DNA from: Argopecten irradians
Lineage: Eukaryota > Mollusca > Bivalvia > Pectinida > Pectinidae
Reading direction: 5' to 3'
Length of the DNA: 64,000 nucleotides
Assembly (NCBI RefSeq): GCF_041381155.1
Contig: NC_091147.1
Location: 7,710,837 to 7,774,836 of the forward strand
Each line of letters starts with the position of its first letter. Positions within the stretch are counted from its first letter, which is position 1. Positions 1,637-63,720 of the stretch are shown here, piece after piece. Below the pieces are notes generated by a model. It worked only from the letters and a program-made list of their open reading frames with translations, was not told the DNA's origin and made no database searches. A program made the translations under genes and the position numbers.

Positions 1637-3415
1637 TTATTAGCTCACCTGGCCCGAAGGGCCGGTGAGCTTATGTCATGGCGCGGCGTCCGTCGTCCGT
1701 CCGTCGTCCGTTCGTCCGTCTGTCCGTCAACATTTCCTTTAAATCGCTACTAGTCATAGAGTTCTGCATGGATTGTAACCAAATTTGGCCACAAGCATCC
1801 TTGGGGGAAGGGGAACAGAACTTATATAAATTTTGGCTCTGACCCCCAGGGGGCAGGAGGGGCGGGGCCCAATAGGGGAAATAGAGGTAAATCCTATAAA
1901 TCGCTACTTGTCCTAGAGTTCTGCATGGATTGTAACCAAATTTGGCCACAAGCATCCTTGGGGGAGGGGGAACAGAACTTGTATAAATTTTGGCTCTGAC
2001 CCCCAGGGGGCAGGAGGGGCGGGGCCCAATAGGGGAAATAGAGGTAAATCCTATAAATCGCTACATGTCCTAGAGTTCTGCATGGATTGTAACCAAATTT
2101 GGCCCCAAGCATCCTTGGGGGAGGGGGAACAGAACTTGTATAAATTTTGGCTCTGACCCCCGGGGGCAGGAGGGGCGGCGCCCAATAGGGGAAATAGAGG
2201 TGAATCCTTTAAAACGCTACTTGTCCTAGAGTTCTGCATGGATTGTAGCCAAAATTAGCCACAAACAACCTTGGGGGAAGGGGAACAGAACTTGTATAAA
2301 TTTTGGCTCTGATCCCCCAGGGGCAAGAGGGGCGGGGCCCAATAGGGGAAATAGAGGTGAATCCTTTAAAACGCTACTTGTCCTAGAGTTCTGCATGGAT
2401 TGTAACCAAAATTAGCCACAAACATCCTTGGGGGAAGAGGAACAGAACTTGTATAAATTTTGGCTCTGATCCACCAGGGGCAAGAGGGGCGGGGCCCAAT
2501 AGTGGAAATAGAGGTAAATCCTTTAAATCGCTACTAGTCTTAGAGTTCTGCATGGAATGTAACCAAATTTGGCCAGAAACATCTTTGGGGTATAAGAACT
2601 GTGTTTGTATAAATTTTGGCTCTGGTTCCGGGGGGCAGGAGGGGCGGGGCCCAATAGGGGAATTATAGGTAATTCCTATAAATCGGTACTTGTCCTAGAG
2701 TTCTGCATGGATTGTAACCAAATTTGGTCAGAAACATTCTTTGGGGTAGGAGAACAGAACTTGTATAAATTTTGGCTCTGACCCTCCGGGGGCAGGAGGG
2801 GGGGGGGGGGGGGGTGGCGCCCAATAGGGGAAATAGAGGTGAATCCTTTAAATCGCTACTAGTCTTAGAGTTCTGCATGGAATGTAACCAAATTTGGCCA
2901 GAAACATCCTTGGGAGAATAAGAACTGTGTTTGTATAAATTTTGGCTCTGGTTCCGGGGGGCAGGAGGGGCGGGGCCCAATAGGTGAATTATAGGTAATT
3001 CCTATAAATCGGTACTTGTCCTAGAGTTTGGCATGGAATGTAACCAAATTTGGCCACAAACATCTTTTTTGAAAGGGGAACAGAACTTGTATAAATTTTG
3101 GCTCTGGCCCCCCTGGGGGCAGAACGGGTGGGGCCCAATAGGGGAAATAGAGGTAAATCCTATAAATCGCTACTTGTCCTAGAGTTTTGCTTGGATTGTG
3201 ACCAAATTTGGCCATAAACATCCTTGGGGGAAGGGGAACAGAACTTGTATAAATTTTGGCTCTGACCCCCTGGGGGCAGGAGGGGTGGGGCCCAATAGGG
3301 GATTTAGAGGTTAATATTAAAATTCCTTCAGAAAAGAAACAATGAACCTGTATTCAGAAAATTACTTGGCATTACAAACCAGGTGAGCGATACAGGCCCT
3401 CTGGGCCTCTTGTTA
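1637..3415 (+). mobile_element. Hairpin-ended element 1 with ~157-bp tandem core (HINE/pearl-like, non-autonomous)
   Basis: The left end reads TTATTA and then a near-perfect hairpin: stem GCTCACCTGGCCC, closed by a GAA loop, with its complement ending GGTGAGC at about 1670. A (GTCC)n-like stretch follows (1686-1725). The core holds about ten ~157-bp units, each with 'tagagttctgcatgg', 'ccaaatttgg', 'cagaacttgtataaa' and a G-rich 'ggggcggggcccaatag'. The right end repeats the complement of the first stem strand (aggtgagc at 3381), then a small GGCCCT-ctg-GGGCC-type palindrome, then CTTGTTA. Short repeats at the ends, a terminal hairpin, a satellite-like core and no coding sequence match HINEs (non-autonomous Helentrons) and bivalve pearl elements. 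Class membership is inferred. Open frames inside are by-products of the tandem units. Confidence 0.75.
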
Positions 3416-4560
3416 CGTTCACACCCTTATTGAAGTTATAAAATAATAAAACACACATGTGCAATAATTGTCACAACGATGATAGATGTTAACAATTGCG
3501 CAATCAGCGATGCTTTCCAATTTTTATTGAGAACAATTTCGTTCTGATCTTGGTTCAGATGTTGTGGTTTCCCGAAAATCACACACAACGCCTTCTTAAT
3601 TTATTCCTCCGTAGTAGATTTTCTTAGTTTATCTATCTAGTTGAATGGTACAAAATTGATGCTATAAATGATGATTTATTATATTTGTTTTAATGATCTA
3701 TACAAAAATATTATTTAAATGTGTTTGCAAATTTTTTTATTTGGGTGATCTAGAGATGAACATCATTGCTATTTGGCCTTTCATTCCAGAAATTTTTTAT
3801 TTATAGCTATTGCTAGCTACCTTTTAATTAGTATCAAACAATTGCATATAGAAATTATACATGAGGTGTCAATCTCTAGTCAACAATAATTCCATCTTTC
3901 TTTTTTTTCTGAAAACATGTACGGCTGTAACACTGCTATATTACAGTAATAAACAGAAACTATAGATGTGAAAGCTCGAGTTGCCTCCCTTCAAACATCA
4001 TTACTATTTATATACATTACCGTAGTGAATGTGCACTGCATAGCACTTGCTGGTCGACTTGTTCAAGCCGTTGTTTAAACAAACATACACAACATATTTG
4101 CAGCAATGTTTCATAACATCAAAGGATTGTTGTAATAGGTAACCAAATTATGACTTTATATTTGACAAAAGTATCTGGCCATGATTTATAAGTCGCATGC
4201 AAGCAGCCATGTTAGCCTTTTTAACAAGGAAATTACGACATAATCAGAAAACCGTAAAATTTCTTTCGTTATTAAATGGATATTAATTAACTTATTTTCT
4301 ATTCTTTTAAAGAGACATTGATGGAATTGATAATTTCAGTAATTAATTTGTGTACGTGTATATAGAATTGATTAATTACTGACATGTATTAAACGAAAGT
4401 GGCACTCATATTTTTACCAGATTTGTTGATTTAATAAATCTACTTATTTCAGAAATAAGAAATTTTGATATATAAAATACATTACACTCATTTCAGGAAA
4501 AAAATAATTTATGGTGGTTGATCTTTTTTACGGAGGCATGTGTAATACACGCCTGCCATC
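3416..4560. other. No gene seen; AT-rich intergenic DNA
   Basis: AT-rich, with frequent stops in all frames. No splice-consistent exon, no repeat family recognised elsewhere in the window and no tandem structure. Confidence 0.5.
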
Positions 4561-4565
4561 ATGGA

Positions 4566-5596
4566 CAGTGGCGTAGGAAGATGAAACGTCATGGGGGGGC
4601 AAAGGTCCTCAATATTTTGTAACTCCCCCCCCCCCCCCGCCACACCTACAGGAGGAGATCAATTCAACTCCCAACCATATAATATATGCTTTATGTACAT
4701 TTTTCATGTATCACTAAATTTAATCCTTGTACACATTTATAGACAGTGGGGTCGCTAAAAGGAAATTAACGAATACGCAAATTGGCCGAATTAGCGTGTG
4801 AGCGTCGAAGGCGCGAGATTTTGGTGTTTTATTAGGGGTCTGAGGGTGCCCCCCGGGATGAGTTTTATGTATATATATATTTTGATGATTTTGCGATCGC
4901 CCGACAGCGCGAGATTTTGGTGTTTGGGGGGTCCGGGGGTCTCCCCCGGGAAAAAATTACGATTTAGAATGGCTGAGATGAGTTTTACGATGCATTTTGA
5001 TGAATTTGCGAGCGCCCAAAGGCGTGAGAATTTGGTGTTAGGGGGGGTCGGGGGTCTCCCCCGGCAAAAAAAATACGATTTAGAATGGCTGAGATGAGTT
5101 TTACGATAAAGTTTAATGATTATAAAGCATTCTTAACATGGTAATTTTTCGATTTAAAGCTACCTGCACTTAGAAATGATAATTGTGTCGTCATAACATT
5201 ATGCAACCCTACTCGATCTGAAATATACCGGCTTCACACCATCGGCACATTGTTGTGTAACATAAAAAAATGAATTAATTGTCTCGCTAAGACATATAAA
5301 CAAATTGATCTTTTAAGAGACATATTTTTTTAATAGCACATAGAATCCCTTGATGGACATTATCAGTCTAGTTTGTGTGTATTGAATTTCACTATTTAAG
5401 GTTTGACATTATGCGCTTGAACGTTTTAGGAAATGCGCCGCGCAGCGGAAAATTTTCTAGAATGAAGTACGAAAAATGCGTAGGAGGACCCTTTTTTCTT
5501 TCAAATAAACATTTTTAGAAAATTTCAGTCGGCGAAAATGGGGGGGGGGGGGGGGGGGCAAAAAGACATGTTTGCCCCCCGCTTCCTACGCCCCTG
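4566..5596. mobile_element. hAT-like non-autonomous DNA transposon
   Basis: The left end reads cagtggcgtaggaag and the right end, reversed, reads caggggcgtaggaag: 14 of 15 bases match. Both ends run into G-rich tracts ('ggggggcaaa'). The 5-bp sequence atgga stands directly outside both ends (4561-4565 and 5597-5601), consistent with a target-site duplication. Such ends are common in hAT MITEs, and a 5-bp duplication is known for some hAT groups. Three imperfect ~115-bp repeats (about 4795-5105) each contain a hairpin of the form CCGGGGG-tct-CCCCCGG. No transposase is present. Confidence 0.65.
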
Positions 5597-5601
5597 ATGG
5601 A

Positions 5602-6530
5602 ATCACTCTGGTTTTCTTTGATCACCGGAACACTATACCTTGGTAATCCTATCGACAGTTTCCGGAACTACGGGAGATAACTTTACACTGTATTGCAACG
5701 TACGTTGTGCATTATACAGCAGTCAGAGGTTCTCCGTTTATCACATGTTTCAGTCACATTCATGTTTCAGTCACATTATAATTTCCCACTTAATTACTTC
5801 AGACTTATTTTTAATGTTACAATAAGGTATTAATTATTCTCACCGAAAGTGTGTCTCAATATCGGTACTTATACTAGTGAATACGCTGCACCTGTTAGCG
5901 TTACTTACCTACGGCAGACTAACCGCGAATCTAACAGTAATTGCATATAAACTTGTTTGTAATTAAAAACAATTCAACTGACAATAAATGCCTTTTCAAT
6001 TACAGGTATTTAATCGAATATTGCTAGGCCTATCCACTTATATTTTATAAAAATGAACTAGAATTCCCCCAAACTGATGAACATGTCAACAAGAACAGTC
6101 CATACAAAGGGAGACAACTGTTACAAACTCTGTCGACGCACTATAATGCAAAGTGTTACTATATAAAACTCCGAATAAATTACCGAGAAGATCACACATG
6201 GGATCACTGCTTCACTCATGTCACAGGGCCATGTATAGTCTCTATATGAAAAAATAGTCAGAAATACGTATAATTAACACAAGGGATTCATCGATCGCTT
6301 GCCAGAAATCTGACCTATTTTTTTCTAACTCGGTAACTTCACAGTCAATCGTCACCTACCTACGTATCTACATGTATAACACCGATACCTTCATAAAGGT
6401 TCAATCTTTTCATCCATACCAGTATTCACACGTTTCTCTACAATTTTTCTCTACAATTTGTAATACTACTTTAATCGGGACGTGCATTGCTCATTTCGTG
6501 CCATTTTGATTCGGGTCGCCAGCGACCTTG
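5602..6530. other. No gene seen
   Basis: I looked here for earlier exons of a claudin-like paralogue, because the 24-bp coding-type repeat begins just to the right, and found none. Short open frames have no recognisable domain. Confidence 0.45.
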
Positions 6531-6539
6531 ACACTTTTC

Positions 6540-7680
6540 GGAGCTTGTGGCGCCACAGGAGCATACCCTAATAGCGTCACAGGAGCATACCCTAATGCAA
6601 TATATCCCAGAGTTCATTGCGGTCCCCACATTCATCTCTGTAAACGGCCGTCTGTTGACCTCGGATCACAGAATATTACGTCATTGCATTGCGCCCCCTG
6701 TATGTATGACGGTCATAATGATTTTTTTGAAACAGCGGATGTCGTATGCAAATCGTGACTATTTACTTACGAGTAAATCTAGTGCATCCGCAAAATAATC
6801 CATTCTTGTTTGGCTTGCTATTGAATGGTCAAATTATATTATGTAAGAACTGACAGTCGTTCACAGGAAAATGGTACAAAACTTACTTACAATTATATTA
6901 AAGAATCTAGTATGAGTCCGAAATACGTTTTTCAAGAATCTTGAAATTTCGCTGGACCATTTACAGAGGTGAAATTGTGGGGACCGCAATGCACCCTGGG
7001 AGCTATTGACCCTAATGGCGCCACAGGAGCATATCCTAATGGCGCCACAGGAGCATACCCTAATGACAACACAGGAGCATACCCTAATGGCACCACAGGA
7101 GCATACCCTAATAGCACCACAGGAGCATACTCTAATAGCGCCACAGGAGCATACCCTAATGGCGCCACAGGAGCATACCCTAATGGCGCCACAGGAGCAT
7201 ACCCTAATGGCGCCACAGGAGCATACCCTAATGGCGCAACAGGAGCATACCCTTATGGCACCACAGGAGCATACCCTAATGGCGCCACATGAGCATACCC
7301 TAATGGCGCCACATGAGCATACCCTAATGGCGCCACAGAAGCATACCCTAATGGCGCCACAGGGGCATACTCTAATGGCACCACAGGAGCATGCCCTAAT
7401 GGCGCCATCGGAGCATACCCTTATGGCGCCAAAGGAGCATACCCTAATGGCGCCACAGGAACATACCCTAATGGCTCCACAGGAGCCTACCCTAGTGGCG
7501 CCTAGTGAACATATCCTAATGGCGTCACATGAGCATACCCTAATAGCGCCACAGGAACATACCCTAATGGCACCACAGGAGCATACCCTAATGGCGCCAC
7601 AGGAGCGTACCCTAATGGCACCACAGGAGGGTATCCTAATGGCGCCAGTAGAGGGTATCCAAATGGCACCAGAAGGGTAC
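6540..7680 (+). repeat. 24-bp minisatellite related to the C-terminal repeat of the claudin-like gene
   Basis: About 30 copies of ggagcataccctaatggcgccaca (24 bp, eight codons), interrupted by a 411-bp MITE. In one frame it reads as repeated G-A-Y-P-N-G-A-T, and because 24 is a multiple of three all frames stay open for long runs. The last units change to ggagggtatcctaatggcgcc, which nearly equals the coding repeat at 13007-13060. In that frame the array ends ...GGYPNGASRGYPNGT... and stops near 7710. In-frame stops occur inside the array. Most likely this is an amplified or duplicated terminal exon; no upstream exons were found, so it is not called as a gene. Confidence 0.7.
6598..7008. mobile_element. 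411-bp MITE with ~50-bp terminal inverted repeats inserted in the 24-bp array
   Basis: The left end runs caatatatcccagagttc and then attgcggtccccacattc. The right end, reversed, gives caatagctcccagggtgc and then attgcggtccccacaattt. Similarity continues for about 50 bases. Flanking both ends is accctaatg (6589-6597 and 7009-7017), a 9-bp duplication as Mutator-like elements make. The flank is also part of the array unit, but an untouched array would continue with gcgccacagg after the left copy, so a true duplication is the simpler reading. No coding capacity. Confidence 0.7.
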
Positions 7681-7710
7681 CCTTAAAATTTACTAGGACG
7701 GAACCCAAGT

Positions 7711-8150
7711 AACTATGGATCTACGATAAATACGAATTACCTCAATTAGGAGGAAGGCGTTAGGGCTAACCTTGTACTTAATATATTTTTGTACATAAAT
7801 ATTCATTAAAAATGTCATTTGAAATATACATATGTATGAATTATTTAATCTTAGAAATGTGGTTGAGGTATTCGAACAAGTATTTATAACTACTTACAAA
7901 GTTGATCTGGATCAATTTGATGGTGTTTTATTTTATTTGTAATAATTACTGTGTGCCACTACTAAATCGATTCAATAAGAATCGTATAAACCTAGAATTA
8001 CATTTTCCTATTCCACAATAACAAGCAGAAACAGCTATTTCATTTTTTTCTGACAGAAGGAAGGATTGAAAAGAGGAAAAAAACTAACAGGAGATAAAGA
8101 AAATCAATAAAATACATAAGATACGTGATGGTGCTGACAAAAGGATACAT
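7711..8150. other. No gene seen
   Basis: AT-rich spacer between the 24-bp and 42-bp arrays, with no recognisable feature. Confidence 0.45.
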
Positions 8151-8156
8151 CTTTAT

Positions 8157-9971
8157 TGGAGATATAGTAATACATTGATTAATGTACATTATTGGTGGGT
8201 GAGATATAGTAATACATTAATTAATGTACATTATTTGTGGGGGAGATATAGAAATACATTAATTAATGTACTTTATTGGTGGGTGAGATATAGTAATACA
8301 TTGATAAATGAACATTATTGATGGGTGAGATATAGTAATACATTGATTAATGTACATTATTGGTGGGTGAGATATAGTAATACACTATTAATGTACATTA
8401 TTGGTGGGTGAGATATAATAATACATTGATTGATGTACAATATTGATGGGTGAGATATAGTAATACATTGATTAATGTACTTTATTGAACCTAGTCGAGA
8501 TATAGTAATACATTGATTAATGTACAATATTGATGGGTGAGATATAGTAATACATTGATTAATGTACAATATTGGTGGGTGAGATATAGTAATACATTGA
8601 TTAATGTACAATATTGATGGGTGAGATATAGTAATACATTGATTAATGTACAATATTGATGGGTGAGATATAGTAATACATTGATTAATGTACATTATTG
8701 GTGGGTGAGATATAGTAATACATTGATTAATGTACAATATTGATGGGTGAGATATAGTAATACATTGATTAATGTACAATATTGGTGGGTGAGATATAGT
8801 AATACATAAAAAATGTACACTATTGGTGGGTGAGATATAGTAATACATTGATTAATGTACATTATTGGTGGGTGAGATATAGTAATACACTATTAATGTA
8901 CATTATCGGTGGGTGAGATATAGTAATACATTGATTAATATACATTATTGGTGGGTGAGATATAGTAATACATCGATTAATATACATTATTGGTCGGTGA
9001 GATATAGTAATACACTATTAATGTACACTATTGGTGGGTGAGATATAGTAATACATAAAAAATGTACACTATTGGTGGGTGAGATATAGTAATACATTGA
9101 TTAATGTACATTATTGGTGGGTGAGATATAGCAATACATCGATTAATATACATTATTGGTCGGTGAGATATAGTAATACATTGATAAATAAACATTATTG
9201 ATGGGTGAGATATAGTAATACATTGATTAATGTACATTATTGGTGGGTGAGATATAGTAATACATTAATTAATGTACATTATTGGTGGGTGAGATATAGT
9301 AATACACTATTAATGTACATTATTGGTGGGTGAGATATAGTAATACATTGATTAATGTAACTTATTGGTCGGTGAGGTATAGTAATACATTGATTATGTA
9401 CATTATTGGTGGGTGAGATATAGTAATACACTATTAATGTACATTATTGGTCGGTGAAATATAGTAATACACTATTAATGTACATTATTGGTGGGTAAGA
9501 TATAGTAATACACTATTAATGTACAATATTGGTGGGTGAGATATAGTAATACATAAAAAATGTACACTATTGGTGGGTGAGATATAGTAATACATTGATT
9601 AATGTACAATATTGATGGGTGAGATATAGTAATACATTGATTAATGTACATTATTGATGGGTGAGAAATAGTTATACATTGATTAATGTACTTTATTGGT
9701 AGTCGAGATATAGTAATACATTAATCAATGTACATTATTGATGGGTGAGATATAAGAATACATTGATTAATGAACATTATTGATGGGTGAGATATAAGAA
9801 TACATTGATTAATGAACATTATTGCTCGGGAGATATAGTAATACATTGATTAATGTACTTTATTGGTAGTCGAGATATAGTAATACATTAATCAATGTAC
9901 ATTATTGATGGGTGAGATATAAGAATACATTGATTAATGAACATTATTGCTCGGGAGATATAGTAATACAT
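8157..9971. repeat. 42-bp minisatellite array (about 43 units)
   Basis: The unit is gagatatagtaatacattg followed by attaatgtacattattggtgggt. Variants include a shortened unit with 'acactattaatgtac', one with 'acataaaaaatgtac' and one with 'attgatgggt'. Each full unit contains the near-palindrome tacattgattaatgta. Toward the right end a larger block with 'tagtcgagatatag', 'ataagaatac' and 'attgctcgggag' recurs, showing higher-order duplication. Because 42 is a multiple of three, long minus-strand open frames (14-residue repeats) appear; they are by-products and not genes. Confidence 0.9.
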
Positions 9972-9974
9972 TTA

Positions 9975-10399
9975 AGCAATGATGTCACTAATTTTTTAAC
10001 TTCATCTGGGTATGAAAGAATTTTTTTTTGCAAACTCTGTGAATCCGCGTGCAGACTACCTGATAATATCAGATGTGTTTAAACGTACGATTCCATTGAT
10101 TTTCCGATGTACGCAACGTTGACGTCTTATACATTTATATATGTACATTGATTAGTGTACATTATTCACTGAATTATTTACTGAATAAAGAACCATGTAG
10201 TTGTAAGTGGCATTCATACTGAATTGCTTGTAGTCTGTTTAAAGTTTGCAAACTTGCGTCCAATCCCACCACATATATAACATACATATAAATGTAAAAT
10301 AAAATATGTTAGAATAAAAATATTGTTTTCTTCTCCATTTTCTAATTGTGTAAATTTATAAACCCTTTGTGATAAACTTGATATGTTTGTTTGATATGT
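9975..10399. other. No gene seen
   Basis: AT-rich spacer. It holds one stray 'tgtacattgattagtgtac' (about 10142) reminiscent of the preceding array. Confidence 0.4.
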
Positions 10400-10797
10400 T
10401 TCCTATTAACACCTAGGGTCATGTAAGGAAGACATTCCATGTATGTGGTGTGTAGCGTGTATAAAGTACGTGTTGCGTGTTTTGAGAGACTGCGGTATAT
10501 TCAGGATATGTCTTCTTGTATACAGGAACTCTTGCCTTTTTTACAGTGCTTTATCGCTGACGCATGCCAACGAGGACACCAAGCAACACATCCCACCCAG
10601 TCACATTATACTGACAACCAGTCGTCCCACTCCCTTAACTGAAACTACCACTTTTATAGACTTTGGTGTGTCTCGGTCAGGGGACAGAACCCAGAGCCTA
10701 CCCCCAAAGAGGAGAACGTTCATACTAAAGGCCAAAATGAGGTAAGTCAAGGGAGACGTTAGGAAGAAGAGATACGATGATATACTAATTTAGTCGC
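10400..10797 (-). mobile_element. Degenerate long SINE copy (reverse)
   Basis: Reverse-strand copy of the ~530-bp SINE seen intact at 29245-29777. It runs from the tail (cctattaac...catgtaagga) through gactgcggtata, tgtcttcttgtata, cacattatactgacaac and gtgtctcggtcagggga to the head segment 'taatttagtcgc' near 10797. It is diverged and lies about 400 bp before the start codon of the claudin-like gene. Confidence 0.75.
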
Positions 10798-13960: not shown

Positions 13961-13968
13961 CTGGGCCC

Positions 13969-14645: not shown

Positions 14646-14651
14646 TTGCTA

Positions 14652-14859: not shown

Positions 14860-15346
14860 CGCGTTCAAAGAGCTACTGAAAATATATCGCAACATCCCCA
14901 AACCGCAATTCCATCGCATTTAAAGTGGAAACCATTGTCTACCGATCGTGTAAAAGGTAAACTCCTCACTACATCATAGTCTAGGAAAGCTATATTTTAA
15001 GGGAGTGGGACGACTTGTTCGCCAGTTACAAGTATAAAGTGACTGATGGACTATGCTTTAGTGAGATGGCACTACAAAAAGATCAAGAGTTCTATCTTCC
15101 CGCTGTAATGCATTGCATTTTTGTGACATGTATGTGAATATACCCCGACATTGAGCAGGTTTTGATACGCTTTTTAACTTTTTTCATTTTTTTTTTTTTT
15201 TTTTTAATTTTATGTAAATTACTTCTCTCCAATTGTCTTCCATTCTGGCATTTTCCTCTCTCAAACACTAGAAATTATAGAGCTTTTTATTCTTATTAAT
15301 GAGAAGGGGTAAGAAAAGAAGAAGAAAGAATGAGAAAGGTGAAGGA
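14860..15346. other. No gene seen; poly-T tract
   Basis: Spacer with a T-rich run at about 15188-15206 and a purine-rich stretch leading into the 43-bp array. Confidence 0.45.
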
Positions 15347-16938
15347 GGTAAAGAGAAATAAGTGTATGTTGAGGAAAGGTGGCTTAAGAGGTAAAGAGAA
15401 ATAAGTGTATGTTGAGGAATGGTGGCTTAAGAGGTAAAGAGAAATAAGTGTATGTTGAGGAATGGTGGCTTAAGAGGTAAAGAGAAATAAGTGTATGTTG
15501 AGGAAAGGTGGCTTAAGAGGTAAAGAGAAATAAGTGTATGTTGAGGAATGGTGGCTTAAGAGGTAAAGAGAAATAAGTGTATGTTGAGGAAAGGTGGCTT
15601 AAGAGGTAAAGAGAAATAAGTGTCTGTTGAGGAATGGTGGCTTAAGAGGTAAAGAGAAATAAGTGTATGTTGAGGAAAGGTGGCTTAAGAGGTAAAGAGA
15701 AATAAGTGTATGTTGAGGAAAGGTGGCTTAAGAGGTAAAGAGAAATAAGTGTATGTTGAGGAAAGGTGGCTTAAGAGGTAAAGAGAAATAAGTGTATGTT
15801 GAGGAAAGGTGGCTTAAGAGGTAAAGAGAAATAAGTGTATGTTGAGGAAAGGTGGCTTAAGAGGTAAAGAGAAATAAGTGTATGTTGAGGAAAGGTGGCT
15901 TAAGAGGTAAAGAGAAATAAGTGTATGTTGAGGAAGGTGGCTTAAGAGGTAAAGAGAAATAAGTGTATGTTGAGGAAAGGTGGCTTAAGAGGTAAAGAGA
16001 AATAAGTGTATGTTGAGGAAAGGTGGCTTAAGAGGTAAAGAGAAATAAGTGTATGTTGAGGAAAGGTGGCTTAAGAGGTAAAGAGAAATAAGTGTATGTT
16101 GAGGAAAGGTGGCTTAAGAGGTAAAGAGAAATAAGTGTATGTTGAGGAAAGGTGGCTTAAGAGGTAAAGAGAAATAAGTGTATGTTGAGGAATGGTGGCT
16201 TAAGAGGTAAAGAGAAATAAGTGTATGTTGAGGAAAGGTGGCTTAAGAGGTAAAGAGAAATAAGTGTATGTTGAGGAATGGTGGCTTAAGAGGTAAAGAG
16301 AAATAAGTGTATGTAGAGGAATGGTGGCTTAAGAGGTAAAGAGAAATAAGTGTATGTTGAGGAAAGGTGGCTTAAGAGGTAAAGAGAAATAAGTGTATGT
16401 TGAGGAAAGGTGGCTTAAGAGGTAAAGAGAAATAAGTGTATGTTGAGGAAAGGTGGCTTAAGAGGTAAAGAGAAATAAGTGTATGTTGAGGAAAGGTGGC
16501 TTAAGAGGTAAAGAGAAATAAGTGTATGTTGAGGAATGGTGGCTTAAGAGGTTAAGAGAAATAAGTGTATGTTGAGGAAAGGTGGCTTAAGAGGTAAAGA
16601 GAAATAAGTGTATGTTGAGGAAAGGTGGCTTAAGAGGTAAAGAGAAATAAGTGTATGTTGAGGAAAGGTGGCTTAAGAGGTAAAGAGAAATAAGTGTATG
16701 TTGAGGAAAGGTGGCTTAAGAGGTAAAGAGAAATAAGTGTATGTTGAGGAATGGTGGCTTAAGAGGTAAAGAGAAATAAGTGTATGTTGAGGAAAGGTGG
16801 CTTAAGAGGTAAAGAGAAATAAGTGTATGTTGAGGAAAGGTGGCTTAAGAGGTAAAGAGAAATAAGTGTATGTTGAGGAAAGGTGGCTTAAGAGGTAAAG
16901 AGAAATAAGTGTATGTAGAGGAAAGGTGGCTTAAGAGG
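15347..16938. repeat. 43-bp minisatellite array (37 units, very homogeneous)
   Basis: The unit is gtaaagagaaataagtgtat followed by gttgaggaaaggtggcttaagag. Almost all units are identical apart from one A/T site (gaggaaagg or gaggaatgg); one unit lacks a base there, two have 'atgtagagg' and one has 'gtctgttg'. The high identity points to recent expansion or strong homogenisation. One strand is strongly purine-rich. Confidence 0.95.
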
Positions 16939-17398: not shown

Positions 17399-18858
17399 TT
17401 AACCAGAACCAAGCTACTTCATCCCGTGGCGTTAACCACTAGACCATTGTATCATTGAATACTGGAAAAATCCGAACCAAACTATCCCGTCACGTAAACC
17501 ACTAGACCATTGTATCAGTGAATACTAGAAAAATCCGAACCAAACTATCCAGTCACGTTAACCACTAGGCCATTGTATCAGTGAATACTGGAAACATCCG
17601 AACCAAACTAACCAGTCACGTTAACCACTACACCATTGTATCAGTGAATACTGGAAAAATCCGAACCAAATTATCCCGTCATGTTAACCACTACACCATT
17701 GTATCAGTGAATACTGGAAAAATCCGAACCAAACTATCCCGTCACGTTAACCACTACACCATTGTATCAGTGAATACTGGAAAAATCCTAACCAAACTAT
17801 CCTGTCACGTTAACCACTAGACCATTGTATCAGTGAATACTGGAAAAAACCGCACCAAATTATCCAGTCACGTTAACCACTACACCAGTGTATCAGTGAA
17901 TACTGGAAAAATCCGAACCAAACTATCCCGTCACGTTAACCACTAGACCATTATATCAGTGAATACCGGAAAAATCTTAACCAAACTATCCCGTCACGTT
18001 AACCACTACACCAGTGTATCAGTGAATACTGGAAAAATCCGAACCAAACTATCCCGTCACGTTAACCACTAGACCATTATATCAGTGAATACCGGAAAAA
18101 TCTTAACCAAACTATCCCGTCACGTTAACCACTACACCAGTGTATCAGTGAATACTGGAAAAATCCGAACCAAACTATCCCGTCACGTTAACCACTAGAC
18201 CATTATATCAGTGAATACCGGAAAAATCTTAACCAAACTATCCCGTCACGTTAACCACTAGACCATTGTATCAGTGAATACTGGAAAAATCCGAACCAAA
18301 CTATCCCGTCACGTTAACCACTAGACCATTATATCAGTGAATACCGGAAAAATCTTAACCAAACTATCCCGTCACGTTAACCACTAGACCATTGTATCAG
18401 TGAATACTGGAAAAATCCGAACCAAACTATCCCGTCACGTTAACCACTAGACCATTGTATCAGTGAATACTGGAAAAATCCGAACTTAACTATCCCGTCA
18501 CGTGAACCACTAGACCATTGTATCAGTGAATACTGGAAAAATCCGAACCAAACTATCCCGTCACGTTAACCACTAGACCATTATATCAGTGAATACTGGA
18601 AAAATCCGAACCAAACTATCCCGTCACGTTAACCACTAGACCATTATATCAGTGAATACTGGAAAAAACCGAACCAAACTATCCCCTCACGTTAACCACT
18701 AGACCATTATATCAGTGAATACTGGAAAAATCCGAACCAAACTATCCAGTCATGTTCACCACTAGACCATTGTATCAGTGAATACTGGAAAAATCCGAAC
18801 CAAACTATCCCGTCACGTTAACCACTACACCATTGTATCAGTGAATACTGGAAAAACA
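17399..18858 (-). repeat. 63-bp tandem array (about 23 units) with tRNA-like promoter boxes on the minus strand
   Basis: The plus-strand unit is gaaccaaactatcccgtcac, gttaaccactagaccattg, tatcagtgaatactggaaaaatcc. On the minus strand each unit reads TGGTCTAGTGGTTAACG, a good match to a tRNA box A, and about 31 bases from box A's start GGTTCGGATTT, a partial match (about 8 of 11) to box B. In part of the array (about 17900-18400) two unit types alternate, with 'actggaaaaatccgaacc' or 'accggaaaaatcttaacc', giving a 126-bp higher-order repeat. It probably grew from a tRNA-like or SINE-head sequence. Whether it is transcribed is unknown. Confidence 0.85.
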
Positions 18859-18904
18859 GATACGATCATTTAGGATAATAATGCTAATCTGCATGCATTG
18901 CTGT

Positions 18905-21240
18905 ATAGAGATTGAATAGTGTTTTGATTGCGTTAAAGGTGGTATGAACGCAATGGGATACAGACATATTCAATGTAGCGCGTTAGCGCTACATGTAGAA
19001 TATGTCTGTATCCAATTGCGTTCATACCATCTTTAACACAATCAAAATACTGTTCAATCTATATTTTTACATAAATAAATCCACTTTTACGTCAAATTTA
19101 AAACGGTGATGGTTGCTAAGTTGGGTAACTACGGTAGTCAGGATGACCGAAGATATAGTTCCTATTGTTGAATGTTATAGCTGCAGTTTGGTTTGAAATA
19201 CAAAAATGACACTTTTCAATTATTTTCAAAATACATCTTTTTTTTCAATTTGATAATATATCAATAATGTCCAATTCGAATAAAAATTGAGATAACCAAT
19301 GCGGAACGACTACCGGTATGCATCGTTGTCAAGGTAGTGAGGCGGTTCGGAGTGGAGCGAGCCGCCATATTTGATTTTCAACCGAGGAAAGTTACTGTGA
19401 TATAGCCAATTGATGGTATGACCGTTGAGCTGCTGAATGCTTGTCATGTATGTATCGGTCTAAGAACGCGATTTAGACTAAATTCTTCATAGTCATTACT
19501 TTTATTTTATTGTACGGAGGATAGACAAGTGTTTGCCTGTGTGTAGGCCTATTTTGAATGCAAAGACGGGGCTATTTAAAACTGATGATACTGTTTCGGA
19601 TAGGTTACCTGTAATGTTTTTGTTTTGGAAACGTATACACTGTATATGATCTGTTCACCTATTGTTCGCTTAGACGCTCCCAGAATTGTTCACCGACAAT
19701 CAGATGTTCTGTACACACATACATGTAGGCCTACATCTGACGTAACTATGGGATTCCCCGAACATTCCTGAGGAAAGCCCCCCGGTTGTAGCCCCGACCA
19801 GCGATTCATTTTGTAGTTTATTACCGTTACAATGCTTGATCACATCTTTTGTTTTGATGTAAAATACATATTTAATTGGATCTAATAAAAACTCCTTATT
19901 GTTCTTTTGAAATCCGTCAACTTATTACGCAAAAATCTTATCGAAGCGTGAACTAGAAGTAGTCCGAACCTGCACTGCGTTTGTATTCATACGTAGTTTC
20001 GATTACGCTAATATATTTACATATGCCCCTATATAGTCAATGGGAGGGGAGTTGCGTTCAAATTAGCGTAAACGCAACGACGTATGAATACAAACCCAGA
20101 GTAGGATCGGACTACTTCTAGTTCACGCTTCGGTAAGATTTTGCGTCATATGATAATCTAAATAAACTTTAATTACTTAATATACATTTTACCTTTTCAT
20201 AGATGACAGATTTGCCTTGAATTAATAATAAACTAAAAAACGATTTCGGTCTTCTATTTGTCTCGAGACTGATCCTTAGGCGGTACAGACAATATCATGC
20301 TCGTCATTAGCCTACTCGGTTGGCCTACTGCATGAAGTGTAAACAAAGTTTCCTCGTTGTCGGATTCAAAATAATATTAAAGAGTTGTTATTAGATCCAA
20401 TTAAAATGTATTTGACATCAAAACAGAATAGATTCTATGTGTTCAAGCATTGTAACGGTAATAGACAACAAAATGAATCGCTGGTCGAGGCTACAACCGG
20501 GGGCTTTCCTCAGGAATGTTTGAGGGATTCCACAGTTACGTCAGTCACACACCATGCAAACACTTGCCTGTCATCCGTACAATAAAATAAAAGTCGTGAC
20601 AATGAAGAATTTAGTCTATATCGCGTACGTAGACCGATACATACATTACAAACATTCAGCAGCTCAACAGTCATACCATTTGATCAAAAGGCTATTTCAC
20701 AGATACTTTCCTCGGTTGAAAATCAAATATGGCGGCTCGCTCCACTTCGGGCCGCATCACTACCCTGACAACGATACCGGTAGTCGTTCCGCCTCGGTTA
20801 TCTCAATTTTTATTCGAAATGGACATTATTGATACATTATCAAATTAAAAAAAAATATATATTAAAAAATAATTCAAGGTGTCATTGTTATATTTCAAAT
20901 CAAACTGCACCTATAACATTCAACAATCGGAACTATATCTTCGGTCATCCTGACTACCGTAGTTACCCAACTTAGCAACCATCGCCGTTTTAAATTTGAC
21001 GTAAAAGTAGACGTATTTATGTAAATATAAAGATTGAACAGTGTTTTGATTGCGTTAAAGGTGTGGTATGAACGCAATGGGATACAGACATATTCTACAT
21101 GTAGCGCTAACGCGCTACATTGAATATGTCTGTATCCCATTGCGTTCATACCACCTTTAACGCAATCAAAACACTGTTCAATCTCTATTTGAACGCAACT
21201 CCCCTCCCGTTGACTATACAGGGGCATATGTAAATATATA
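18905..21240. repeat. 2.3-kb nested inverted repeat (foldback-like element)
   Basis: Two long arms (about 18912-19985 and 20080-21186) are reverse complements with roughly 90% identity. Each arm has unmatched blocks of about 200 bp (around 19545-19735 in the left, 20165-20345 in the right). Each outer end is itself a ~155-bp palindrome (18912-19066 and 21030-21186), starting agattgaa(t/c)agtgttttg and centred on gcgcgttagcgc. The centre (19929-20155) is a smaller palindrome. Its loop segment, with 'catatgcccctatatagtca', recurs inverted just outside the right end (21187-21240). No coding frame is convincing. It resembles foldback-type DNA elements; the class is not assigned. Confidence 0.8.
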
Positions 21241-21980
21241 AATGTAAACACTAGTAGTCGGGGCAGACCCGGATACGGTTAATGATGCATAAAATGTTTG
21301 TTTACGTCGGCTGGTTACTCCGTACTTTAATGTATTCAGTCAAAGATCGAACATGTTATTTTAGTCGAGTTGTTCACTTCCTTGTAGACCAGCTTTACTT
21401 CGTTTTACAGAAATTGTATTTATGTTGAGATCTGTAATCATCCCACGAAGAAGGTCAATCCTACGTGTAACCTAAACCACATTAGGTGATTTAAATCGTC
21501 TATAAGAAAACGCATCCTAAAATTGAAGAGATGCTATGTTAGATTGGATTTTAAAACTTACTTGAATATAGATCATTTATTTCTGGTTGACCTGACTAGT
21601 TTAATTAGTGTGCACTTTAGTATATATGTTAGATATATAAATCTATATCGGTGAATCCTTAAGTTCGTCCTCATATACATTTAGTCCTAATATACTCTCA
21701 AGTATTCCGATTTTTTGGGTGTGAGTATGAAGTTAATAAGTATCACACATATAGCATAGGTCAGTTTGTTGGAATGGATCTAATAGAGTTGCTTCCCTTG
21801 TAACAGCAATAAAATATTATTTCGTGCATGGAATCATTACAACCATAAACGATATTAGTTATAACGAAATAGGTCTAAAAATGGCTTCATACAATTATTT
21901 TCTGTTTCATTTTGATGCAAAATTGCGAAACCAAGTGACTCTTGTTCAACTGCAGTGCGATATTTTGTTAAACTATTTAA
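21241..21980. other. No gene seen
   Basis: AT-rich spacer; a 62-residue open frame near 21824 has no recognisable features. Confidence 0.4.
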
Positions 21981-22223
21981 TAAGATATGATTATAGATTT
22001 AATAAGATATGATTATAGATTTAATAAGATATGATTATAGATTTAATAAGATATAGGATTATAGATTTAATAAGATATGATTATAGATTTAATAAGATAT
22101 ATGATTATAGATTTAATAAGATATGATTATAGATTTAATAAGATATGATTATAGATTTAATAAGATATATGATTATAGATTTAATAAGATATGATTATAG
22201 ATTTAATAAGATATGATTATAGA
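21981..22223. repeat. 22-bp AT-rich minisatellite (about 11 units)
   Basis: The unit is agatttaataagatatgatt + at, with occasional 24-bp units containing an extra 'at'. Confidence 0.9.
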
Positions 22224-23220
22224 AAACTTGTTCACTTTTACAGTAGATACTAAATAACACTCATACGTTGTTTCTCATACCTTTTACAAAGTAGACCGTA
22301 TGTCAGCCTAGTTTACATTGGTGTTTTAGGTTTATCGTCTTTTAACATATGATCATACCTACCTGTTGTAGACGTTATTTCAGACAGTGGATTTTTTCTT
22401 TCAATTCACTTATGTATCTAAATCAAATTTACAAACAGCCAGCATATTTGGTCGGTATAGTCAAGTTTCCGCATTAAACAGAGTTGTCTTACAAGAAGGA
22501 AATTACTATTACGACTGAATATGTATAAGAATCCTATTTAGATAAGCTGTGCTCCATTGTGAATCGAAAATATTTGCTCGGCCAATCAGGTCTAATATAC
22601 GAAAGTCCGTGTACGTTGGTCAACAATAGTCACCAGATAAAACAAATCAGATATAGGAGAAAATTACTTACCTCGTCCAGAACTCAAAACCTTTCTCCAA
22701 ATGTGAGGCATGTTAAGGGAGACGTTATGGAAAAAAGGAAAGATAAAATTCTACATACAGACGCCTTTCTGTTTGTGAAGCTTCAAACTTACATAATAAT
22801 GATTCAAATTCGACTTGTTCCCTGTTTGGTAATGATCCTAAATGTATACTGTAGTTTTTCAATTGAGCGAAATGTTATAAATACTGACAACAATTTAATA
22901 TGAGATAATAATTATAAGTACTAAAGGAAAAATGTGTGTATTAACAAGGTTTTCGAGAAGTATTGTGCCGAACTCAGATTGTAACTCGGTAAATCAAAGT
23001 ATACATGTATACATCAAATCCATGGAGCATACAACGGTTTTTTGTTGTATGAAACATTAATGAAGTTTCAGACAGAAGTCAGAGATCGAAGCTCTCATTA
23101 GTACGGAGTACTATTGGCGATCGATTGTATCGTGCTAGTCAGCAATACACTCGTCGGTATTAATAAACCGGGTGAACTGTTGGAAGTAGGTTAACAAAAC
23201 TAAACGAATTATTACTATTT
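22224..23220. other. No gene seen; possible degraded SINE piece
   Basis: About 22700-22790 (aagggagacgttatgg, aaagataaaattc, agacgcctttc) weakly resembles the reversed head of the long SINE. An overlapping 114-residue open frame is therefore not called as a gene. Confidence 0.35.
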
Positions 23221-24634
23221 TAACAAGAGGCCCATGGGCCTTAACGGTCACCTGAGTTAAAATATATAATGAAACAAATAATGAAACAAATTAAAGACAT
23301 AAACACTATAAGCTGGGCCATGAAGTTGGTCAGTGATTTATAAATTTGACCTTTTTAGACTATGAAGAGTATTTGCTTCCATCAAACCTGTGAACTTAGA
23401 GGCATTTTTTGAAATTTAAATCAATTTGACCCTGTTTGGTCCTGCCCCTCTGGTCCCCCAGGGGGTCATCGAGGACGGATATGGATGTTAAAATGCTATA
23501 TCTTAGGCTAATAATTCTAATCAAGTTTGAATAATTTCCTATGAAAATTGGGCAAATAATGTTCACAAATATGTTTTTCCTATATAAACTAAAGTAAACT
23601 TGACCCCTCCCCAGGGGGTAACGTGAGACCCCAAGGTCATATAATTCACAGTTTTTTATAAAACACCTGAAGACCTTTCCATCTATAATTATTTGATTCT
23701 ACTATATCCAGAATTTTAGAAGATTTTTGAAGTTTTAGCCTATTTGACCCTTTTTTAGCCCCGCCCCTCTGCCCCCAGGGGGTCGGCCAGGACCAATGTG
23801 GATATGATATTAAAATGCTATCTCAGGCTAATGATTCTAACCAAGTTTGACTAATTTCCTATGAAAATTGAGCAAAAAATGCTCATTAATGTGTTTTTCC
23901 TATATAAACTATAGTAAACTTGACCCCCTCCCCAAGGGTAAACAGGAGACCCCAGGGTCATATAGTTTACAATTTTTATAAACAAACTTTAAGACCTTTT
24001 CATCTATAAAGTGTATTTGATTATACCATTTCCAGAATTTTAAAAGAATATTTTTGAAGTTTTAACCTATTTGACCTTTTTTGGCCCCACCCCTCTGCCT
24101 CCAGGGGGTCGGCCTGGACGAATATGGATATGATATTAAAATGCTACCTCAGGCTAATAATTCTAACCAAGCTTGACTCGTTTCCAATGAAAATTGACCA
24201 AATAATGCGCAAAAATGTGTTTTCTCAATATAAAGTATAGTAAACTTAACCCCCTCCCCAGGGGGAAACTAGAGACCCCAGGGTCATATAATTCACATTT
24301 TTTGTAAAGGACCTTAAGACCTTTCTATCTATGAAGAGTATTTGATTCTACCACATCTGTGAGTAGAGAAGAAGATTTTTGAAATTTTATTCAATTTTAC
24401 CTCTTTTGGCCCCTCCCACAGCCCCCTGGGGTGTGGGGACCATATAATTCACAATTTTGATTGGCCTTATGCCTTAGAAGGTTTGCGCAAAATTTCATTG
24501 AAATTGCTTCAGCAGTTTTGGAGAAGAAGTCGAACATGTAAATTGTTTACGGACATACGACGGACGACGCACGACGACGGACAAAAGGCGATTAGAATAG
24601 GTCACTTGAGACTTCGTCTCAGGTGACCTAATAA
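23221..24634 (-). mobile_element. Hairpin-ended element 2 with ~320-bp tandem core (HINE/pearl-like)
   Basis: Read on the minus strand it begins TTATTA, then the hairpin GGTCACCTGAGAC-GAA-GTCTCAAGTGACC (24600-24628). A pyrimidine-rich 'gtccgtcgtcgtgcgtcg' stretch follows, then about three ~320-bp units marked by 'ctatgaaaattg', 'tttcctatataaact', 'gaccccctcccca' and 'gggtcatata'. The far end carries ggtcacctga (23247-23256), then ggccca/tgggcc, then the TAACAAG terminus at 23221. The layout is the same as in element 1 but in the opposite orientation, with different stem bases that still pair. No coding capacity. Confidence 0.75.
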
Positions 24635-24639
24635 CCGAT

Positions 24640-24730
24640 GAAGTTTTGCTTTTTTCCGTCTTTGCAAAGTACATAGTTAGCTCCCTTGCGGGTAGGTATC
24701 GATTGTTACATAATTATTTCGTGACCATAG
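24640..24730. mobile_element. Single arm of a palindromic MITE family (also at 49.2 and 53.2 kb)
   Basis: Contains ccgtctttgcaaagtacata, gttagctcccttgcgggtag and gtatcgattg, matching one arm of the palindrome at 53098-53265. Confidence 0.5.
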
Positions 24731-24970
24731 TTCGCGTCGTTTTCTCTTTACGAATGTCGTTACGTCATATAATGGGTAGCGGAGGTGTTAGTAGACCGCT
24801 GTTAAGTTCTCTCAAGTGTCGAAATAGAATTCTGTATATTAAGCCCATTGCATGATCGTAGTTTTCTCTTCTTACCGTCTCATATTGACAATGTAAATGT
24901 TTCAGCCGAAGTGATCGTCCCCCCTGTAAGACCCGACACTTATACGAGACACGTCAGTATTAGTGTGTTT

Positions 24971-25512
24971 TGTTTGTTTGTTTGATTGATTAATTAACGT
25001 CCTATTATATATATATATAACAGCTATTGTCATGTAAGGACGGCCTCCTATGTATGCGGTGTGTTGCGTGTATGTTGTGCGAGGTGCATGTTTTGGGAGA
25101 CTGCGGTATATTCCTGTTGTGTCTTCTTGTATAGTGGAACTATACTTGCCCTTTTTATAGTGCTATATCACTGAAGCATGCCGCCGAAGACACCAAGCAA
25201 CACACTCCACCCAGTCACATTATACTGACAACGGGCGAACCAGTCGTCCCACTCCCTGTATGCTGAGCGCTAAGCAGGAGCAGAAACTACCATTTATATA
25301 GACTTTGTTGTGTCTCGGCCAGGGGACAGAACCCCGAGCCTTCCTCACAGAGGCGAACGCTCAACTCAAGGCCAAAAGTGAGGCGGTGCCAAGGGAGGCA
25401 TTAGGAAAGATGAAGTCCCTTATGAAAGAAGAGAAAAGATAATATTCTAAATTTAGTCGCCTTTTACGATCATGCAATAGGGGCAGCAGGTACAATGCTA
25501 ACGCCCTACCTG
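24971..25512 (-). mobile_element. Long SINE copy (reverse, nearly full length)
   Basis: From the reversed CAAA tail (tgtttgtttgtttgattg) through gactgcggtatattcc, cacattatactgacaac, tgtctcggccaggggaca and gaacgctcaactcaaggcc to the head (tacaatgctaacgccctacc). Slightly diverged from the copies at 27195, 29245 and 57471. Confidence 0.85.
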
Positions 25513-25530
25513 TGAGGTTGCCTTGAAGAT

Positions 25531-26010
25531 AAGACGTTAGAATTGAAACTGCTACCCCATTGTATTCGTAAAGGGCGATTAAATCTGATAGGCCTATCTT
25601 ATCTTTTCTTTCTTCCTTACGTCTCCTTTGGCACCAACTCATTTTGGCCTTCTGTTAAGCACTTAGTCCGCTAAACCTGCCTATATTATTAGGCTTTTTT
25701 ATTTATTGTTTTTTTGCCTAATATATATTAGGCAAAAAAAAAAAAATAAAAAAAATAAATAAAAAAGCCTAATAATATAGACAGGTTTAGCGGACTATTT
25801 AGCACTATGAGGAAGACTATGAGCTCTGTCCCCTGGCCGAGATACACTATAGTCTTTACAAGTGGTAGTTTCTGTGAAGCGCTCAACAAGTGAGTTGGAC
25901 GACTTGTTCGCCCGTTGTCAGAATACTGTAAGCGGGTAATATGTGTTGCTTCGTGTCTTCGGCGACATGCCTCCGTGATTTAGCATTAGAAAATGACAAT
26001 AATCTTCTAT
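25531..26010 (+). mobile_element. Degenerate long SINE split by a palindromic MITE
   Basis: The head (acgttagaattgaaactgct to cattttggccttctgttaag) ends at about 25663 and the body resumes at 25807 (atgaggaagactatgagc, ccctggccgagataca, cgcccgttgtcag). The gap is filled by the MITE at 25664-25797. Confidence 0.7.
25664..25797. mobile_element. 134-bp almost perfect palindromic MITE inside a SINE
   Basis: Left arm tagtccgctaaacctgccta then tattattaggc. The right arm is its complement, ending cggacta, with an A/T-rich centre. Flanks ttaagcact (25655-25663) and tttagcact (25798-25806) differ by one base and look like a 9-bp target duplication. Confidence 0.75.
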
Positions 26011-26044
26011 TGATGGTGGCATGGTTAAGTGGGAAATACAGAGG

Positions 26045-26225
26045 GTAACTGGTTTCCTTAGCACAGCCTCATACAACACAGGGGTGAGCGAAGGCCAAGT
26101 GTGAGATGGTGTCAAGGAACACGTTAGTAAAATAGGGAAAAAAAGAAATGATAGGATCCCAAATTTAGTCCCCTTTTACGATCATGCAAGAAGGACAGCA
26201 GTTTCAGTTCTAACACTTAATACTG
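26045..26225 (-). mobile_element. SINE head fragment (reverse)
   Basis: Contains 'gaaggccaagtgtgagatgg', 'aacacgttagtaaa', 'cccaaatttagtcccctttt' and 'acgatcatgcaag', the reversed head of the long SINE. Confidence 0.6.
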
Positions 26226-26584
26226 TAGTTATTAATAAATTGGCATTCGCGCTGAAGTGAAGCATAATCAAACCATTTAGTACACATTTTTCGTATTTAT
26301 TTTATATAATGCTTTATAATATAGGTTATAGATAATTATTAAAAATAATCTAGCACACATATATAATATATATTTTTCTGACACTCTTCTGTTTAACTCT
26401 AAGGCAGTGGTTTGGAGCCCAATATAATTGTTCCAGGAGGACAGTTAGTTAATAAGATCAAAAGGTAAAACGTATACAGTTATACATTTTGTCTGACTGT
26501 AGGTAGGGCGTTAGAATTGTACCTTCTGCCCCTATGGCTCGTAAAAGGCGATTAAATTTAGGATCTTATCTTTTCTCTTCTTCC

Positions 26585-27938
26585 TTATTATCCCCCGCCC
26601 AACGAAGTTGGCGGGGGATATACAAATGGGTTCCGTCCGTCCGTCTCTCCGTCCGTCCGTACGAATGGTTTCCGGAGCATAACTCTAAAACCAGTAGAGA
26701 TATTTCCATGAAACTTCATAGACATATTGTTCTTATGGTCTGGTAGTGCCTTTTGCTATTTTTAGGTTTTCATTTTTTGCACTTTTTCCGTAACCATGGA
26801 AACATTGCTGAATATATCATATTTTTGTACCAGGTTCATTTCCGCAGCATAACTGGAAAACCGGTTGAGATATATGCACGGAACTCCATAGGCACATCAG
26901 TCTTATGGTCTTATAGTGCCTTTTGCTATTTTTAGGTTTTCACTTTTTGTACTTTTTTCTGTAACCATGGAAACATTGCTGAAAATGGCAGATTTTTGCG
27001 TAAGAATCGTTTCCGGAGCACAACTCTAAAACCAGCAGAAATATTTCCTTGAAATTTCATAGACACATTGTTCTTATGGTCTAGTAGTGCCTTTTGCTAT
27101 TTTTAGGTTTTCACTTTTTGTGGGTTTTTTTCTGTAACCATAGAAACATTGCTGAAAATATCATATTTTTGTCGCAGGTTCCTTTCCGGAGCATTGGCCC
27201 TGCAGGTAGGGCGTTAGAATTGTACCTGCTGCCCCTATTGCATGATCGTAAAAGGCGACTAAATTTAGGATCTTATCTTTTCTCTTCTTCCTAAACTGAC
27301 TTTATCTTTCCTAATGCCTCCCTTGGCACCGCCTCACTTTTGGCCTTGAGTTGAGCGTTCGCCCCTGTGAGGAAGGCTCTGGGTTCTGTCCCCTGGCCGA
27401 GACACACCAAAGTCTTTAAAAGTGGTAGTTTCTGCTCCTGCTTAGCGTTCAGCATACAGGGAGTGGGACGACTGGTTCGCCCGTTGTCAGTATAATGTGA
27501 CCGGGTGGGGTGTGTTGCTTGGTGTCTTCGGCGGCATGCTTCAGTGATATAGCACTATAAAAAAGGGCAACAGTTCCACTATACAAGAAGACACAACACG
27601 AACATACCGCAGTCTCCCAGTACACTCACCTCGCACAACATACACGCAACACACCGCATACATGGGAGGCCGTCCTTACATGACCATAGCTGTTAATAGG
27701 ACGTTAATTAATCAAACAAACAAACAAACAATTTCCGGAGCATAACTCTAAAACCAGGCTATTTCCACTTCATAGACACATTCATTTTATGGTCTAGTAG
27801 TACCTTTTGCTATTTTTAGGTTTTCATTTTTTGTACTTTTTCCTGTTTTTTTTTTCATACACATAAGTCTCCACAATCAAACTTACTTCAGCTTTGATAT
27901 CTCCATTGGCGGGGGATCTGAATGACTATGTCCTTGTT
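26585..27938 (+). mobile_element. Hairpin-ended element 3 with ~170-bp tandem core (HINE/pearl-like)
   Basis: It starts TTATTA and then the hairpin ATCCCCCGCCCAAC-GAA-GTTGGCGGGGGAT. A 'gttccgtccgtccgtctctc' stretch follows. The core is about four ~170-bp units with 'tccggagcataactctaaaa', 'gccttttgctatttttagg' and 'gtaaccatggaaacattgct'. The fourth unit is split by SINE copy B. The right end has ggcgggggat (27908-27917), a small gac-tat-gtc motif, then CTTGTT. It sits inside SINE copy A. No coding capacity. Confidence 0.75.
27195..27731 (+). mobile_element. Long SINE copy B (intact, inside element 3)
   Basis: Full-length ~535-bp copy from ggccctgcaggtagggcg to the (CAAA)n tail. The 12-bp target duplication tttccggagcat lies at 27183-27194 and 27732-27743. 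Inside it a second tRNA-like region is visible (gagcgttcgcccctgtgagg then ggttctgtccc), so the unit looks like a tRNA-related segment preceded by an unrelated ~110-bp leader. It is the youngest layer of a triple nest. Confidence 0.9.
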
Positions 27939-43164: not shown

Positions 43165-43229
43165 CACCCCTCCTTAAAGAAAAGAAAGTTTTCTTGAAAA
43201 GGAAACTTTCTTGACATATCAAGTAATAT

Positions 43230-53809: not shown

Positions 53810-63720
<9,911 letters not shown>

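Follow-up and report, generated by a model that had tools for sequence, protein, structure and literature searches.

Three elements, designated A, B and C, were found in a 64,000-nucleotide stretch of the genome of the bivalve Argopecten irradians (contig NC_091147.1, positions 7,710,837 to 7,774,836; hereafter the window). They are very likely non-autonomous rolling-circle elements that follow the HINE/Helentron (Helitron2) plan, and Rep-helicase-endonuclease proteins such as this genome encodes probably mobilise them. They are new families of an established class: A and B are HINEs, and C is HINE-like. Covariation in their left-end hairpins is real and wider than a first-pass annotation of the window had seen, but it was anticipated in print, and the GAA loop of these hairpins recurs across unlike stems, common but not defining.

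The published HINE plan consists of a 5′ subterminal inverted repeat (subTIR), a complementary inverted repeat, a microsatellite, central repeats, a 3′ subTIR and a 3′ palindrome (PMC7492417, PMC4067079). In A, B and C the parts follow one order: T-rich end, stem closed by a GAA loop, GTCC-rich stretch, tandem repeats and terminal CTTGTT. Element A (1637..3414, + strand), of HINE type, is T-flanked (T/TATTA...CTTGT/T, slashes marking its limits). Its left hairpin AGCTCACCtGGCCC-GAA-GGGCCGGTGAGCT (1642..1671), which has a T bulge, is followed by a GTCC-rich microsatellite (1687..1728), ten central tandem repeats of 157 bp (1735..3315), the right subTIR CCAGGTGAGC (3379..3388), a 10-bp perfect complement of the 5′ arm that includes the base bulged in the hairpin, a 3′ palindrome AGGCCC-TCT-GGGCCT (3394..3408) and the terminal CTTGTT (3409-3414).

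Element B (23222..24634, - strand), also of HINE type and related to A, has the left hairpin TAGGTCACcTGAGAC-GAA-GTCTCAaGTGACCTA with a C.A mismatch (24598..24630), a GTCC/GTCG-rich microsatellite (24549..24582), 3.2 central tandem repeats of ~326 bp (23406..24431), the right subTIR CTCAGGTGACC (23246..23256), perfectly complementary to the 5′ arm over 11 bp that span the hairpin mismatch, a 3′ palindrome AGGCCCATGGGCCT (23228..23241) and the terminal CTTGTT (23227-23222). Element C (26585..27938, + strand), HINE-like and unrelated to A and B, is inserted in a repeat resembling a short interspersed nuclear element (SINE). It comprises the left hairpin TATCCCCCGCCcAAC-GAA-GTTGGCGGGGGATA with a C bulge (26589..26620), a GTCC-rich microsatellite (26632..26660), 3.1 central tandem repeats of 171 bp (26658..27194), with an additional partial unit beyond a nested SINE-like repeat, the right subTIR TTGGCGGGGGAT (27906..27917), after which there is no 3′ palindrome, and the terminal CTTGTT (27933-27938). 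The nested SINE-like repeat (27195..27731, + strand) has an (AAAC)n tail and is flanked by two copies of TTTCCGGAGCAT (27183-27194 and 27732-27743). The region 26497-28344 is a nested chronology, C lying inside one SINE-like copy and carrying another in its own core.

The GTCC-rich stretch, tandem core and CTTGTT end had been described for all three elements in the first-pass annotation and were confirmed, the cores measuring 157, 326 and 171 bp. What it overlooked is a third copy of the 5′ arm, inverted, just inside the right end of each element; the unbroken left-right match is 10 bp in A, 11 bp in B and 10 bp in C, and constitutes the 3′ subTIR of the HINE plan. The 3′ palindromes of A and B, of which the folds were equalled by 6 and 11 of 200 shuffles, respectively, are likewise those of the plan.

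Folded as single-stranded DNA, the left ends of A, B and C give -14.6, -11.4 and -14.2 kcal/mol (z-scores of -6.45, -7.04 and -5.48), and none of 200 shuffles of each folded as well; here lie the 5′ subTIR and the complementary inverted repeat of the plan. The left ends are hairpins with a GAA loop, as had been claimed. Their stems exist but are not the clean helices first drawn, each being interrupted by the bulge or mismatch given above. In the window TTATTA-N10-14-CGAAG occurs four times where 0.14 occurrences are expected, the fourth (19922) not being a hairpin element. Triloop hairpins with at least 10 pairs number eight, with GAA on one strand in four, namely A, B, C and an unrelated AT-rich hairpin outside these elements, AAGAAAGTTTTCTT-GAA-AAGGAAACTTTCTT (43182-43212). 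The background rate of GAA/TTC was 16/176, 4/44 and 0/11 in triloop hairpins of at least 6, 7 and 8 bp, respectively, counted over uninterrupted stems with five duplicate loci dropped, the stems of A, B and C being interrupted ones. GAA is thus commoner in the elements than in the other hairpins of the sequence examined.

The description of the three elements as sequence-unrelated holds for C but not for A and B. The first 266 bp of A and B align at 63% identity (E = 5e-17), which rules out that all three are unrelated, and the two also have in common a core motif around GACCCCCTGGGGGCAG (E = 2e-8). C matches A over 22 bp of microsatellite only, and B not at all at E 0.01.

In stacked distinct copies the left onset of homology is a T-rich TT(A/T)TT ahead of the stem (A, n = 10; C, n = 9; and a further family, D, n = 3). 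On the right, homology ends at CTTGTT in 10 of 11 copies of A, 4 of 6 of C and 3 of 3 of D, the remainder reading CTTGTA, CTTGCT or CTTTGTT. The ends proposed for these elements accordingly hold for A, C and D, with CTTGTT in most copies. The TTATTA start is present in A, B and C and in 6 of the 10 stacked copies of A but is not fixed, the other four reading TTTTTA; five of the TTATTA copies were found by the motif or in the first-pass annotation and one by a search with it, and the four TTTTTA copies were not motif-chosen. Copies are flanked by T and T, and HINEs prefer to insert at TT (PMC4067079, PMC7492417). The flanks of C join as CTTCTTCCT/TGACTTTA; since other SINE-like copies vary by a few bases at that point (CCTAAACTGAC, CCTAACTGAC, CCTAATAAC), the empty site can be placed only to within some bases, and a TT target for C would be consistent with the sequence, not fixed by it.

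Listed copies of A and B carry four inner stems (GGCCC/GGGCC, GGTCC/GGACC, GACCC/GGGTC and GAGAC/GTCTC). In 86 of 100 listed left ends, 390 of 430 inner-stem cells are Watson-Crick, a cell standing for a copy and not for an event; the inner-stem positions were not fixed by the search, although parsing retained a row only if it was 34-36 nt long and contained AAG. Counted from the loop, the third pair is C-G in 35 of these 86, T-A in 25 and G-C in 19, and the second pair is C-G in 61 and A-T in 19. Pairing is therefore kept while the stem sequence changes, as the first-pass annotation had proposed from three elements. The loop is GAA in 65 of the parsed left ends, AAA in 17 and other in 4, counts that lean to GAA because the parse required AAG; folding of all 100 listed left ends gave GAA in 54, AAA, the CpG-decayed form, in 16 and other loops in 30.

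Covariation also links the hairpin to the right end. Arm positions 6 (C/T) and 11 (G/C) distinguish the sister subfamilies B1 and B2, with matching substitutions in both the hairpin partner and the right end. In B1 and B2 the right-end match covers 11 bp and does not reach the second pair from the loop, which argues that pairing inside the hairpin itself is maintained. The unbroken left-right run exceeds the unbroken hairpin base in six of the seven types whose right end is known (A1, 10 against 7; A2, 9 against 8; B1, 11 against 6; B2, 11 against 7; D, 10 against 9; F, 9 against 4), and in C the two tie at 10. The additions made here are the inner-stem covariation of A and B, the three-place covariation of B1 and B2 and the left-right run longer than the hairpin base in six of seven types.

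The 846 Mb host genome was searched for related left ends. Taken alone, the motif TTATTA-N10-16-CGAAG shows no enrichment (1939+1892 matches against 2175+2820 for the reversed control) and was rejected as an element finder, the TTTTTA copies of A also escaping it. With the outer stem of A and B added, 757+827 matches were obtained against 18+24 in the control. A search blind to stem and loop, anchored on TTATTA and the microsatellite GTCCGTCCG, gave 436+668 against 36+43, several matches being possible per element.

Families were counted from the blind search over the first 67 Mb of contig C1, for which matches were listed. Merging rows with a common left end gave 77 distinct left ends: A1 17, A3 2, C 23, D 10, E 2, F 3, G 6, H 5, I 3 and other 6. 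An intact GAA loop stands at the expected place in 36 of the 77, one degenerate I copy with a GAA fold elsewhere not being counted. It is found in A1 (12/17), A3 (2/2), C (20/23) and E (2/2, with a T-A closing pair and not C-G). It is absent from D (0/10, ACGCG in 8), F (0/3, CGAG in 2) and G (0/6, ATCA in 4); the only intact copy of the three in family I has a TCC loop, and a further family, J, met by chance beside a Rep gene, has TGAGG. No such hairpin is formed by the five H copies or the six other left ends. Since D, F, G, I and J have no GAA, the loop varies within the group, and the proposal that it defines the group fails. D and I have the outer stem ATCCCCCGC in common with C and other loops, so one and the same base can carry different loops and inner stems.

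An autonomous partner was sought through the genome matches to Helitron_like_N, which number 104 and were merged by hand to 91 for place comparisons. PIF1 and Exo_endo_phos domains occur in one reading frame, the Helentron combination. With the full HINE anatomy of A and B, the presence of Rep, PIF1 and Exo_endo_phos in the genome bears out the kinship with HINEs and Helentrons suggested earlier. Two Rep copies that were followed, on contigs C13 and C193, have >16 kb in common at 99.3%, the C13 copy being cut inside the coding region on its left side. When 45 of the 100 listed places of family E were compared with the Rep places, one lay within 60 kb.

Family J has the hairpin TAGGGATTTCCAT-TGAGG-ATGGAAATCCCTA at 355 genome places within 3 mismatches (e.g. 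C3:2791586-2816049 and C7:44695749-44695974). Its same-strand neighbours are often 49-66 bp or ~4.0-4.8 and 8.1 kb apart, resembling tandem arrays of whole rolling-circle elements. Among the 100 J places listed, left ends lie 13.3 kb (C13:6664959) and 16.7-21 kb (C10:221870-226175) from an antisense Rep. J and an opposite-strand Rep are a possible autonomous element with an inverted coding region, a lead only.

Among the closest described systems is Cg_HINE of Crassostrea gigas, which, as here, has an 11-12 bp 5′ subTIR with a complementary inverted repeat 1-12 bp away, a GTCY/GTCC/GTCK microsatellite, satellite-like central repeats and a 3′ subTIR with palindrome, and forms groups with related or unrelated flanks that show concerted 'diagnostic changes' in subTIR, inverted repeat, stem and loops (PMC7492417). 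It differs in that no loop sequence is named in the available text of that paper, and C and D here have no 3′ palindrome. Helitron2 elements likewise have an asymmetric terminal inverted repeat that forms a 5′ hairpin, with a 3′ copy inside the right end (PMC3627910). Compensatory changes were described there in two related Culex elements, together with the proposal that terminal-repeat pairing breaks up the 5′ hairpin and determines where replication ends; the present data instead extend to many copies from several subfamilies and show covariation in three places as well as the pattern of hairpin defects. DINE-1 and HINE-Mo have in common with these elements the subTIRs, the 5′ inverted repeat (DINE-1), the 3′ stem-loop, the TT target, variable terminal Ts, a microsatellite and central repeats (PMC4067079). 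Bivalve pearl elements, likened here by description only, have ~160-bp central repeats and were re-classed as non-autonomous Helentrons (cited in PMC7492417).

A GAA loop has been printed before. The left ends of FoHeli1 (CAGCC GAA GGCTG) and FoHeli2 (AGTCC GAA GGACT) of Fusarium oxysporum read CC-GAA-GG as here, the loop not being remarked on in that section, whereas these are coding elements with a shorter stem and another target site; FoHeli3-5 have a degenerate 5′ hairpin and no 3′ hairpin (PMC5148889). Among the literature matches listed, nothing on point was found for GAA or CGAAG loops in a Helitron context.

Mini-hairpins of GCGAAGC have extraordinary stability. The recurrence of GAA may accordingly reflect convergence on an optimum, a highly stable DNA triloop that nothing reads specifically, an account to which we give slightly less than even credence. 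It agrees with the occurrence of GAA on unlike stems (A/B, C and E) and in the printed 5′ ends of FoHeli1 and FoHeli2 (PMC5148889), and with the abundance of families that do without it (F, 260 genome places; J, as given above). The other loops of D and I, despite the outer stem of C, are left unexplained by it, and the CpG of the loop decays (AAA in 16 of the 100 folded copies), so source copies must have kept the GAA loop. That the loop is instead of ancient origin and recognised at the left ends of Helitron2/Helentron elements, some families having since lost it, is quite unlikely. C-GAA-G is indeed present in A, B, C and two fungal Helitron2 groups, and the inner hairpin of A2, GTCC-GAA-GGAC, is identical to that printed for FoHeli2, but D, F, G, I and J have no GAA, the fungal examples are only two, and FoHeli3-5 are degenerate at this hairpin (PMC5148889).

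The repeated arm could alternatively be the site of a sequence-specific protein needed at both ends, the hairpin being a by-product of the third copy and its loop inherited. In A, B, D and F the match between the right copy and the 5′ arm continues across the hairpin defect, so both end copies are better conserved than the hairpin partner; against this, the inner stem covaries too, beyond the right-end match of B1 and B2, and we hold the account to be possible, if rather doubtful. That the likeness is due to chance, as GC-rich hairpins beside T-rich sequence, has a negligible probability: the bare motif is indeed not enriched genome-wide, but the counts with the outer stem included, and the possession of both ends in common by distinct copies, contradict it.

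For rolling-circle elements of the HINE/Helentron plan, the anatomy, covariation and copy structure are demonstrated; from these we infer a nick, a pairing switch and a role for the loop. In the most probable mechanism, a Rep nuclease would nick the T-rich left end, and the displaced 5′ arm would fold into the left hairpin, its inner mini-hairpin, often C-GAA-G, perhaps nucleating the fold or contacting protein. During transfer at the right end the 5′ arm would re-pair with its complement there, the subTIR, which would open the hairpin, draw the ends together and set the end point shortly downstream at CTTGT/T. The switch from hairpin to end pairing is the idea of Bao and Jurka (2013, PMC3627910), which the left-right run pattern fits, without proving it. 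A bolder version, in which the C-GAA-G mini-hairpin is an ancient recognised module of fungal and molluscan Helitron2/Helentron left ends, the inner stem being any pairing sequence and the outer arm constrained to match the right end, which would let one arm alternate between hairpin and end pairing, seems unlikely.

Several points weigh against the rolling-circle reading and its pairing switch. Besides the counting of cells by copy, there are four stem sequences only and therefore few implied changes. The right ends of A2 and F are known from one copy each, and the seven types are not independent (A/B; C/D). The candidate statement that left-right pairing is always the stronger partner was rejected: by duplex energy it beats pairing of the arm with its inverted repeat in only four of seven types (B1, B2 by 0.1 kcal/mol, D and F), and the hairpin partner is favoured in A1, A2 and C. 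The predicted fold at the place of the 3′ palindrome in C is 0 kcal/mol, and that of family D was equalled by 152 of 200 shuffles; C and D, being without this palindrome, are therefore called HINE-like and not full HINEs. No autonomous element with ends of A, B or C was found: none of these ends was seen at the limits of the sequence that the two Rep copies followed have in common. Finally, single-stranded donors were insufficient for the canonical Helraiser (PMC5876387), which calls for caution over a free single-strand fold.

Other features were noted in passing. Right ends of B2 type occur paired ~125-130 bp apart (L040 8244-8368 and, in reverse, 483-613), the second with other sequence before the palindrome, and are perhaps doubled right ends. 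The window also holds a ~2.3 kb foldback element (18918-21185) with the same long inverted repeat at both ends, each end itself a near-perfect palindrome around GTAGCGC-GTTA-GCGCTAC, and six other tandem arrays, at 7009-7647 (24 bp), 8159-9972 (42 bp), 15345-16938 (43 bp), 17421-18856 (63 bp), 40558-41507 (59 bp) and 55719-56760 (34 bp).

In some animals, Helentrons and their HINE derivatives account for a large share of the genome, and they move satellite DNA about. Among these elements the recurrence of the GAA loop is a modest new regularity; as the definition of a new group it does not stand. The many families with different stems, in which pairing is kept in three places, form a naturally occurring mutant series that bears on the switch idea of 2013, and the presence of a GAA loop in left ends from both fungi and molluscs raises the cross-species question of whether it is inherited, recognised or merely convenient.

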